From Gemmatimonadaceae bacterium (lineage in GTDB: Bacteria; Gemmatimonadota; Gemmatimonadetes; Gemmatimonadales; Gemmatimonadaceae), in the NCBI GenBank assembly GCA_019745365.1, contig JAIETI010000140.1:1-32431 (forward strand): DNA of 32,431 bases, given 5' to 3'. The position numbers and the translations under genes are program-made. Below are positions 1,540-4,226 of the stretch, piece after piece (positions within the stretch are counted from its first letter, which is position 1; every line of letters begins with the position of its first letter). The notes under the pieces are model-generated. The model did not search any database, was not told where the DNA came from, and worked only from the letters and a program-made list of their open reading frames with translations.

Positions 1540-2151
1540 ATGCAGCTCCTCCTCTTGCTGGGACCCTGGATGAAACCTGTGCTTCTCGTCGCCGCCGCGC
1601 TCGCCGCGGTGGCCATCGGCAGCCGCCCCGTCGCGGCGCAGGACGCGGAGAAGATCGGACCGCAGGTCGGCGATGTCGCGCCCGATTTCGCGCTCCCCGC
1701 AGCCTCCAAGGATGGCGTCGCGGCCAAGCAGATCCGCCTCTCCGATCTGAAGGGCAAGCTCGTGGTCATCTCCTTCTTCCCGAAGGCGCGGACCAAAGGC
1801 TGAACCGTGCAACATGAGGCGTACCGGGATCAGTACGCCACGATCTTCAACAACGGCACCGGCGTCGTCGCGCTGAGCATCAGCCACGACGAGGCGGGTG
1901 AGTTGGCGAGTTGGGCCAAGGAGTCGGGATTCCCGATGCTCTTCGCGAGCGACACCACGCGGCAGGTGGCGGAGGCGTACGCGGCGGAAGGAAAGGGGAT
2001 CGGTCCGATGAAGAACTTCTACCAGCGTGTCGTGTTCGTGGTCGGCAAGGATGGACGGATCGCGCATGTGATCCGCCCCTTCCCCGCCCTCTCGCCGAAC
2101 GGGTACAAGGAGCTCGAGACGGTCATCGACTCCTTGAGCGCGAAGAAGTAG
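1540..2151 (+). CDS. Exported selenocysteine peroxiredoxin (in-frame TGA at 1801-1803)
   Basis: A PrxQ/BCP-like peroxiredoxin of 203 residues, expected to reduce H2O2 or organic peroxides outside the cytoplasm. A hydrophobic signal peptide ends near VAAQ (about residue 34), and the fold begins at GDVAPDFALP. The active-site motif PxxxTxxC reads P81-K-A-R-T85-K-G-TGA-T. The stop codon, codon 88, sits exactly at the peroxidatic cysteine, and the same frame continues for 115 residues of typical peroxiredoxin sequence, including conserved R163 in QRVVFVVGKDG. I therefore read TGA as selenocysteine. There is no cysteine anywhere in the protein. ATG 1540 was chosen because GGAGAG (1531-1536) lies 3 nt before it; ATG 1570 (MKPVLL) would give a more usual signal peptide. 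Alternatives are a base error for TGC or a broken gene. No selA, selB, selC or selD is in the window. Confidence 0.82.
1801..1839 (+). promoter_or_regulatory. Putative bacterial SECIS element: UGA plus downstream hairpin
   Basis: Fourteen nucleotides after the in-frame TGA there is a perfect 7-bp stem, GGCGTAC (1818-1824) with GTACGCC (1833-1839), closing the 8-nt loop CGGGATCA. The loop starts 21 nt after the TGA and has G at positions 2-4. Bacterial SECIS elements recognised by SelB lie inside the coding region just behind the UGA, with a small apical loop holding a G near its start roughly 16-37 nt away (rule recalled from the published bSECIS model). This hairpin fits. Folding energy and SelB binding were not tested. 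Confidence 0.68.
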
Positions 2152-2253: not shown

Positions 2254-3186
2254 ATGCCGCGCCCGCCCTTCACCGTCGCGATCGTCCAAGACGCTGCCTC
2301 CGACGATCCCACTGCTACACTCGCTGCGACCATCGCCCGCATCCGTGAGGCGAAAGCCCGCGGCGCGCAGATCGTCTGCCTCAAGGAACTCTTCAACGCG
2401 CCCTACTTCTGCAAATCGCTGAAGGCGGAGCGATTCAACCTCGCGGAACCGATCCCGGGACACACGACCGACGTCCTCCGCGCCTTGGCCGCAGAACTCG
2501 AGATCGTGATCGTCGTCCCGATGTACGAGCGCGAGGCACCCGGCGTCTATCGGAACTCGGCGGCCATCATCGACGCTGACGGCACGCTGCAGGGCGTGTA
2601 TCGCAAGATGCACATCCCGCACGACCCGCTCTTCGAGGAGAAGTACTACTTCGCGCCCGGCGACACCCAGCCCGTGCAGCCCGCGGGGCTCCGCGGCCCG
2701 GCACGCCAAGCGGGTGGCTTCATGGTCTGGAAGACGCGCTACGCCAACATCGGCGTCCTCATCTGCTGGGATCAGTGGTATCCCGAGGCCGCGCGCATCA
2801 CCGCGCTCCTTGGCGCCGACATCCTCTTCTACCCGACGGCGATCGCGTGGCATCCGGGGGAGAAGGCGGAGTGGGGCGCAGCGCAGGTGGACGCGTGGCG
2901 CACCGCCCAACGCGCGCATGCGATCGCCAACGGCGTCTTCGTCGCCGCGCCGAATCGCGTCGGCTTCGAGGCCGAACCGGGCACCGAGGGGCTCGAGTTC
3001 TTCGGACACTCCTTCATCGCCGATCCCTACGGGCGCTACATCGCACAGGCGGACCACAACGATGAGGCGATCCTGGTGGCGACCTGCGATCCGGAGCTGA
3101 TCGAGTACACCCGACGCAACTGGCCCTTCCTTCGCGACCGTCGCGTGGACGCCTACAAGCCGATCGTGAACCGTTGGATCGGATGA
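2254..3186 (+). CDS. aguB: N-carbamoylputrescine amidase
   Basis: Nitrilase-superfamily hydrolase, 310 aa, converting N-carbamoylputrescine to putrescine, CO2 and ammonia in the cytoplasm. The Glu-Lys-Cys triad is visible: E45 in CLKELF, K118 in YRKMHIP and C171 in LICWDQWYPE. The signature HDPLFEEKYYFAPGD and the C-terminal RRNWPFLRDRR are typical of AguB rather than of beta-ureidopropionase. Length is normal for the family. Its stop overlaps the start of aguA (ATGA at 3183), so the two enzymes of the agmatine route are translationally coupled. A -10-like box just before the ATG suggests a leaderless transcript. Confidence 0.96.
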   Translation: MPRPPFTVAIVQDAASDDPTATLAATIARIREAKARGAQIVCLKELFNAPYFCKSLKAERFNLAEPIPGHTTDVLRALAAELEIVIVVPMYEREAPGVYRNSAAIIDADGTLQGVYRKMHIPHDPLFEEKYYFAPGDTQPVQPAGLRGPARQAGGFMVWKTRYANIGVLICWDQWYPEAARITALLGADILFYPTAIAWHPGEKAEWGAAQVDAWRTAQRAHAIANGVFVAAPNRVGFEAEPGTEGLEFFGHSFIADPYGRYIAQADHNDEAILVATCDPELIEYTRRNWPFLRDRRVDAYKPIVNRWIG

Positions 3187-4226
3187 GCGGCGCCGTCCGT
3201 TGGCCCGCGGAGTGGGAACGCCACGCCGCGACCTGGATCGGGTGGCCGCATCACGAGCCGGATTGGCCGGGGAAGTTCGAGCCGATCCCGTGGGTGTACG
3301 CGGAGATCGCGCGCGTGCTCGCGCGCAGCGAGCAGGTGGAGATCCTCTGCCACGATGCCTCGGTGCTCGAGGACGCGGAGGCGTGTCTCACCGCGCACGC
3401 TGTCCCGATGGATCGGGTGCGCTTGCACACGCTCCCGACGGATCGCGTCTGGCTCCGCGACTCGGCGCCGACGATGGTCGAGCGCGACGGCGCGCTCTCG
3501 TGGACGAACTGGGATTTCAACGCGTGGGCCAAGTACGACGACTTCGCGCGCGACCAACGGATTGGGGCGCACATCGCGTCGATCACCGGGACGCCGCGCA
3601 CGGAACCGGTGCGCGCCGACGGGCGCGGGCGCGTGGTGCTTGAAGGCGGTGGGATCGAGACCGATGGGCGCGGCACGATGCTCGTCACCGAGGAGTGGCT
3701 CCTCTCCGACGTGCAGGTGCGGAACCCCGGCTTCACCCGCGCCGACTACGAGGCGCTCTTCGCCGCTGAGCTCGGCTGCACCAAGACGATCTGGCTCGGC
3801 GAAGGGTGCGTCGGCGACGACACGCATGGGCATGTGGATGACATCGCCCGTTTCGTCGCACCCGGCGTCGTCGTGCTCGCACATGAAGAGGACGCTGCCG
3901 ATGAGAACCATCGTCGCTCGGCCGACAATCTCCGCCGTCTGAAGGGGGCGACGGACGCGTGGGGCGAGCCGATCCGCGTGATCACCCTCCCCTACCCTCG
4001 TGCGGTGGTGATGGACGGCCAGCGGCTCCCCGCGAGCTACGCGAACTTCTACATCGCCAACGGGAGCGTGCTCGTCCCCACCTTCAACGACGCGAACGAT
4101 CGCGTCGCACTGAACACGCTCGCGGAGTGCTTCCCCGACCGCGAGATCGTCGGGATCCACGCCGTGGATCTCGTCTGGGGGCTCGGCACGGTCCATTGCC
4201 TCTCGCAACAACAGCCTGCGCTCTAG
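3183..4226 (+). CDS. aguA: Agmatine deiminase
   Basis: Peptidyl-arginine-deiminase-type (PPAD) enzyme, 347 aa, hydrolysing agmatine to N-carbamoylputrescine and ammonia. Family signatures are WIGWPHHEPDW near the N-terminus, the substrate-guiding VWLRDSAPTM, LEGGGIETDGRGT, the histidine motif GHVDD, and the nucleophile C339 in GTVHCLSQQQP. ATG 3183 was chosen because it overlaps the aguB stop; a TTG nine bases earlier is possible but less likely. With AguB it makes putrescine from agmatine. The arginine decarboxylase that would supply agmatine is not in the window. Confidence 0.96.
   Translation: MSGAVRWPAEWERHAATWIGWPHHEPDWPGKFEPIPWVYAEIARVLARSEQVEILCHDASVLEDAEACLTAHAVPMDRVRLHTLPTDRVWLRDSAPTMVERDGALSWTNWDFNAWAKYDDFARDQRIGAHIASITGTPRTEPVRADGRGRVVLEGGGIETDGRGTMLVTEEWLLSDVQVRNPGFTRADYEALFAAELGCTKTIWLGEGCVGDDTHGHVDDIARFVAPGVVVLAHEEDAADENHRRSADNLRRLKGATDAWGEPIRVITLPYPRAVVMDGQRLPASYANFYIANGSVLVPTFNDANDRVALNTLAECFPDREIVGIHAVDLVWGLGTVHCLSQQQPAL

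Follow-up and report, generated by a model that had tools for sequence, protein, structure and literature searches.

The bacterial SECIS model on which bSECISearch relies, in the sections of PMC13188914 that describe it, is a hairpin lying within the coding region, directly 3' of the Sec UGA. The limits given there are a stem of 4 to 16 bp, a loop of 3 to 9 nucleotides, a UGA-to-loop distance of 16 to 37 nucleotides and an MFE of -7.5 kcal/mol or lower. The loop carries a G at its first or second position, with G or U often coming next, and an intraloop N1-N2 pair, found in most elements, is optional in the model (PMC13188914, same sections). The picture of Sec insertion at UGA as opposed to termination by release factor 2 comes from work on E. 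coli fdhF (relevant passages of PMC4513850). Among the listed selenoprotein families is a Sec-containing peroxiredoxin with a TxxU motif (PF00578/COG1225), the first of which was that of Eubacterium acidaminophilum, as cited in the pertinent parts of PMC13188914 and PMC1088965.

The window analysed here (the whole stretch of DNA, 32,431 nucleotides) is one contig of a Gemmatimonadaceae assembly, G000 in our sample, which amounts to 2.83 Mb in 193 contigs and is 90.6% complete. Near one end it carries a gene with an in-frame UGA and a hairpin behind it, laid out as follows.

1570..2151, forward strand: peroxiredoxin gene (AhpC/TSA, BCP/PrxQ-like), 193 residues with TGA translated as U, the predicted Sec being position 78.
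1801..1803, forward strand: in-frame UGA at the peroxidatic position, predicted Sec, in the motif PKARTKG-U (PxxxTxxU).
1804..1817, forward strand: spacer of 14 nucleotides, in which codon +3 (1810-1812) is CAA.
1818..1824, forward strand: 5' arm of the putative SECIS stem, GGCGTAC (from sequence, folding and repeat search, with conservation of the inner six pairs).
1825..1832, forward strand: apical loop CGGGATCA, 8 nucleotides; its second base is G and so is the third, where most relatives have U.
1833..1839, forward strand: 3' arm of the putative SECIS stem, GTACGCC (same grounds as the 5' arm).

The initial annotation had described a perfect 7-bp stem beginning 14 nucleotides after the TGA, with an 8-nucleotide loop bearing an early G and a distance of 21 nucleotides from the UGA to the loop. 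Direct reading of 1818-1824 and 1833-1839 shows that description to be exact, and the RNA folding that it had proposed as a check, run on 1781-1860, recovers the stem in the MFE structure as well as in the centroid. A repeat search of 1560-2160 returned only one other exact 7-nucleotide hairpin besides these two arms, with a 17-nucleotide loop. Stem, loop and distance, together with a loop that starts CGG and an MFE of -12.8 kcal/mol for the 45 nucleotides 3' of the UGA, all fall within the bSECIS model as set out in those sections. In contrast to most elements described there, C1 and A5 of the loop are unable to pair in the N1...N2 pattern.

The TGA at 1801-1803 is the sole in-frame interruption of the 1570-2151 reading frame, the product of which matches PF00578 (1.3e-25, 90.2 bits for a cut-off of 26), and in alignments it falls on the catalytic Cys of BCP-type peroxiredoxins of known structure. 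The TxxU motif of the protein reads T75-KG-U78. Elsewhere TGA serves as an ordinary stop; the next gene, for example, terminates at a TGA at position 3186. An AF2 model, for which 22 sequences from the window and the loci were used, reached a pLDDT of 86.6, and its best structural matches were structures of the BCP/PrxQ type, with TM-scores of 0.84-0.88 by target length for 5enu, 3hjp and 3drn. The N-terminus, judged by eye, resembles a signal peptide, and the protein is probably exported. Downstream, at 2254-4226, lie a carbon-nitrogen hydrolase gene (PF00795) and a PF04371 deiminase gene, which look like an ordinary polyamine pair.

From the window sequence by itself, the hairpin carries little weight as evidence and lies within chance. 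The stability of the 80-nucleotide piece 1781-1860 is nothing out of the ordinary (z -1.35, with an equal or better fold in 17 of 200 shuffles), and an equal or longer Watson-Crick stem obeying the same loop and distance rules follows 14 of the 739 TGA trinucleotides on the two strands of the window (7/332 and 7/407). When the codons of the window gene were shuffled synonymously in 20,000 trials, 57% of them restored the inner six pairs and 16% the full seven; 10% gave the seven pairs together with the loop rule. Four of the seven pairs are dictated by the peptide AY..YA. The warning in the initial annotation that the residues AYRDQYA force some of the symmetry, and that chance might be at work, was thus well placed as far as the single sequence goes.

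Gemmatimonadota are a phylum of soil and freshwater bacteria. Screening 395 Gemmatimonadota genomes turned up relatives of the peroxiredoxin in 310 at E<=1e-20; among the matches listed, most carry one internal TGA. The copies compared below come from 190 loci: 30 from the 395-genome search, 80 stretches picked by hand down its table with some listed rows skipped, and 80 of the 273 loci returned by a pattern scan. These loci gave 210 copies, reduced to 136 distinct ones once identical 120-nucleotide stretches were dropped, and the codon at the TGA position is TGA in 106, TGC in 27 and TGT in 3. In the pattern scan, the relatives belong to Gemmatimonadota in every case where the record title names a group. 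The scan pattern included the hairpin peptide, and the counts were repeated without its loci. Several genomes carry tandem copies of the gene (L023, L024, L031, L033, L035, L038), often one Sec and one Cys; both are Sec in G263 and both Cys in G087.

The comparison separates the two forms sharply. The inner six pairs are formed in 105/106 TGA copies versus 2/30 Cys copies (85/86 versus 2/23 when the pattern-scan loci are left out), and all seven in 87/106 versus 1/30. The loop rule, G followed by G or U, holds in all 106 TGA copies and in 6 of the 30 with Cys; inner stem and loop rule occur together in 105 of the former and in none of the latter. Synonymous shuffling of each gene would lead one to expect, among the 106 TGA copies, 41 with the inner six pairs, 17.5 with all seven, 54 with the loop rule and 21 with inner stem and loop. 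The hairpin stretch lies under the MFE limit of -7.5 kcal/mol in 105/106 TGA copies, and 104/106 share the loop octamer CG[U/G]GAUCA. The exceptions are one TGA copy in which pair 2 is broken (L075) and two Cys copies that retain the inner stem (L044 and L111). On these sequence comparisons, conservation of the hairpin is far beyond chance. The initial annotation had taken the hairpin for a SECIS-like element backing recoding of the UGA, and had named loss of the stem in Cys homologues as the observation to look for; the counts support the former and display the latter.

Compensatory changes, which the same annotation had proposed to seek among the TGA homologues, are found as well, repeatedly at the basal pair and once at pair 2. 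Across the 106 TGA copies the basal pair is G-C in 63, C-G in 13, U-A in 11 and A-U in 1; it is unformed in 18, 16 of which have A-A and belong mostly to one clade. The 3' partner occupies the third, silent position of the Ala codon +12, and it tracks the third base of codon +5. Where codon +5 encodes His, the combinations with codon +12 are CAC/GCG (2 copies), CAT/GCA (9) and one unpaired CAT/GCC; where it encodes Asn, they are AAC/GCG (10) and AAT/GCA (2). On a tree of the quick kind, from which the TGA codon and the hairpin codons were masked, the two bases of the basal pair need 10 and 11 changes when taken singly and their joint state needs 12, which means that they mostly change together. 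At pair 2, the copy L084 has exchanged G-C for A-U at the cost of two Ala replacements, one by Thr and one by Val.

The tree is less telling about the history of the Sec and Cys forms. The Sec/Cys label changes 9 times on the best tree and well-supported branches force at least 1 change, so that the count of independent Sec/Cys losses is uncertain. By eye, the Cys rows fall into nine groups on the best tree, with L044 and L111 in two of them. A sign test on the tree, stem against Sec, had only one pair on well-supported branches to work with and was uninformative.

Constraints extend beyond the stem and loop. Codon +3 is CAA in 85/106 TGA copies versus 4/30 Cys copies; of the 499 Gln codons that the TGA copies contain apart from sites +3 and +10, 59 are CAA. 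At 1810-1812 of the window CAA represents an unexplained spacer constraint. The loop Arg codon is CGT or CGG in 106/106 TGA copies and CGC in 24/30 Cys copies. Tyr +11 is present in 106/106 TGA copies and replaced by Trp or Phe in 14/30 of those with Cys. Both CAA +3 and Tyr +11 fit selection at the RNA level. Since Tyr +11 is fixed with Sec and drifts with Cys, the RNA may constrain the protein and not the reverse; Sec chemistry acting on the protein may also account for the conservation of this residue. At the protein level, position U-3 is occupied by Thr in 104 of the 106 TGA copies and by Ser in the other 2. Cys is absent from the whole 193-residue translation of the window gene and from the aligned part of 95/106 TGA copies. 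With the resolving Cys absent, the peroxiredoxin likely works by a 1-Sec mechanism.

The machinery that such a reading calls for was looked for in the genomes. The own genome encodes SelA (462 bits) and a full-length SelB with its winged-helix domains (376.6 bits, cut-off 242). Its selD (L238:1501-2424, contig C93) itself has an in-frame TGA at the catalytic site, CAG-U-ASK, and probably encodes a second selenoprotein of G000. Behind the selD TGA, folding draws a small hairpin, AUGGGUCC-GGC-GGACCUGU, which is no stabler than shuffles (z 0.95). Repeated searches of this incomplete assembly did not find tRNA-Sec, the best matches being tRNA-Ser. The own-genome selD lies 154 nucleotides from a contig end, and tRNA-Sec lies about 90-150 nucleotides behind the selD match in G057, G124, G004, G010, G063, G081 and G374 (tRNA-Sec loci including L123, L134 and L142). 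The idea that the tRNA gene was lost just beyond selD at the contig end is unsupported, the final 154 nucleotides being without a tRNA start.

Fifty genomes were chosen by hand from the 395-genome search, 39 with a TGA copy and 11 with Cys copies only. SelA is present in 38/39 of the former, G183 being the exception, versus 3/11 of the latter, and tRNA-Sec (E<=1e-12) in 35/39 versus 3/11, the three Cys-only genomes being those with SelA. The four TGA-bearing genomes in which tRNA-Sec was not found are G000, G031, G175 and G158. The last of these is a single contig that has a TGA copy (L075), SelA and a SelD with TGA, and yet yielded no tRNA-Sec; missing sequence could explain the gap, as could a tRNA that has diverged. 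SelD was found in 14 of the 21 genomes searched for it, with a TGA inside it in 9 of the 14: it occurs in 11/11 TGA-bearing genomes, in 3/3 Cys-only genomes with SelA and in 0/7 of those without SelA.

It might be argued that the hairpin simply comes along with the conserved peptide AYRDQYA as a by-product, the palindromic TAC/GC codons of which would pair in a GC-rich genome, that it has no function at the RNA level, and that the UGA is recoded by another cue. Indeed, four of the seven pairs follow from the peptide, and the 7-bp stem of the window returns in 16% of synonymous shuffles. Against this, the inner stem stands in 105 TGA copies where shuffling predicts 41, CGT or CGG encodes the loop Arg in every TGA copy and CGC does so in 24 of the 30 Cys copies, and paired changes occur at a synonymous site. 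Peptide symmetry as the sole cause is rejected by the synonymous shuffles, and the by-product explanation is, in our judgement, very unlikely. The UGA could also be a true stop, leaving a pseudogene or two short genes and a hairpin that is regulatory or due to chance: under table 11 the TGA does close the frame, and another ORF could begin at 1807. However, 106 distinct copies have TGA at the same codon, with one protein family on both sides of it, in several families of the phylum; 30 copies have TGC or TGT at that codon; and 21 aligned relatives, Cys rows among them, are 43-66% identical to the window protein. A pseudogene or an assembly error is ruled out by the 106 distinct TGA copies and the frame conserved 3' of the UGA, and it is extremely improbable that the codon is a stop.

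That tRNA-Sec was not found in the G000 assembly would suit a further proposal, in which readthrough puts an amino acid other than Sec (Trp or Cys) at the UGA, the stem doing no more than slow the ribosome. We give it hardly any credence: SelA, SelB and SelD are present in the own genome, every copy seen that lacks the TGA has Cys at that position, and SelA and tRNA-Sec accompany the TGA form across genomes. The hairpin is read as a bacterial SECIS element directing Sec into the peroxiredoxin, and this is very probably correct; the comparison of homologues (stem, loop and covariation) settles what a single sequence cannot.

In the proposed mechanism, the hairpin would act as a SECIS in the mRNA, 14 nucleotides behind the in-frame UGA. 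SelB, with GTP and Sec-tRNA-Sec, would bind the loop and upper stem and deliver Sec at the UGA, instead of release factor 2 terminating the chain. The product would be a BCP/PrxQ-type peroxiredoxin, probably exported, with Sec78 as its single redox residue, which would reduce peroxides by a 1-Sec mechanism with the help of an outside thiol. A bolder suggestion, possible and somewhat doubtful, is that the near-invariant loop octamer and the fixed spacer codon reflect a phylum-specific recognition by SelB, and that the SECIS froze Tyr +11 and Ala +6, which drifted after Sec was replaced by Cys. If so, an RNA signal would have shaped a protein sequence over the age of the phylum.

The UGA of this peroxiredoxin is predicted to be read as Sec in most of Gemmatimonadota, and ordinary gene calling would then split the enzyme in two. 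The many Sec and Cys copies, some of them in tandem, amount to a natural experiment on the requirements of a bacterial SECIS, and the set yields stem, loop and spacer constraints straight from sequence.

Within the open-licence literature, and in the parts of it consulted (PMC8318568 and PMC3281104 among them), we found no paper on such a selenoprotein gene in Gemmatimonadota, and the term 'gemmatimon' is absent from the main text of PMC13188914, PMC9312934, PMC5330540 and PMC12013277. Both the SECIS element and the Sec-peroxiredoxin are of kinds already known, and the Gemmatimonadota hairpin is a new and well-supported case. With the Sec-containing peroxiredoxin (TxxU), as the passages cited at the outset portray it, the window protein shares PF00578, the PxxxTxxU motif, a predicted Sec at the peroxidatic site and Cys in homologues; unlike it, the window protein is probably exported and is without a second redox residue, and it is not a member by score of the NCBIfam PrxU equivalog NF040737 (40.9 bits, cut-off 270). 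It has the fold and active site of the BCP/PrxQ peroxiredoxins (5enu, 3hjp, 3drn) but a predicted Sec in place of their peroxidatic Cys, and scores 76.6 bits on the BCP equivalog NF006960, short of its cut-off of 140. Finally, the Gemmatimonadota hairpin goes beyond the bSECIS model, in the form in which its source presents it, in the nearly fixed CG[U/G]GAUCA loop and the spacer CAA that recur across the phylum.
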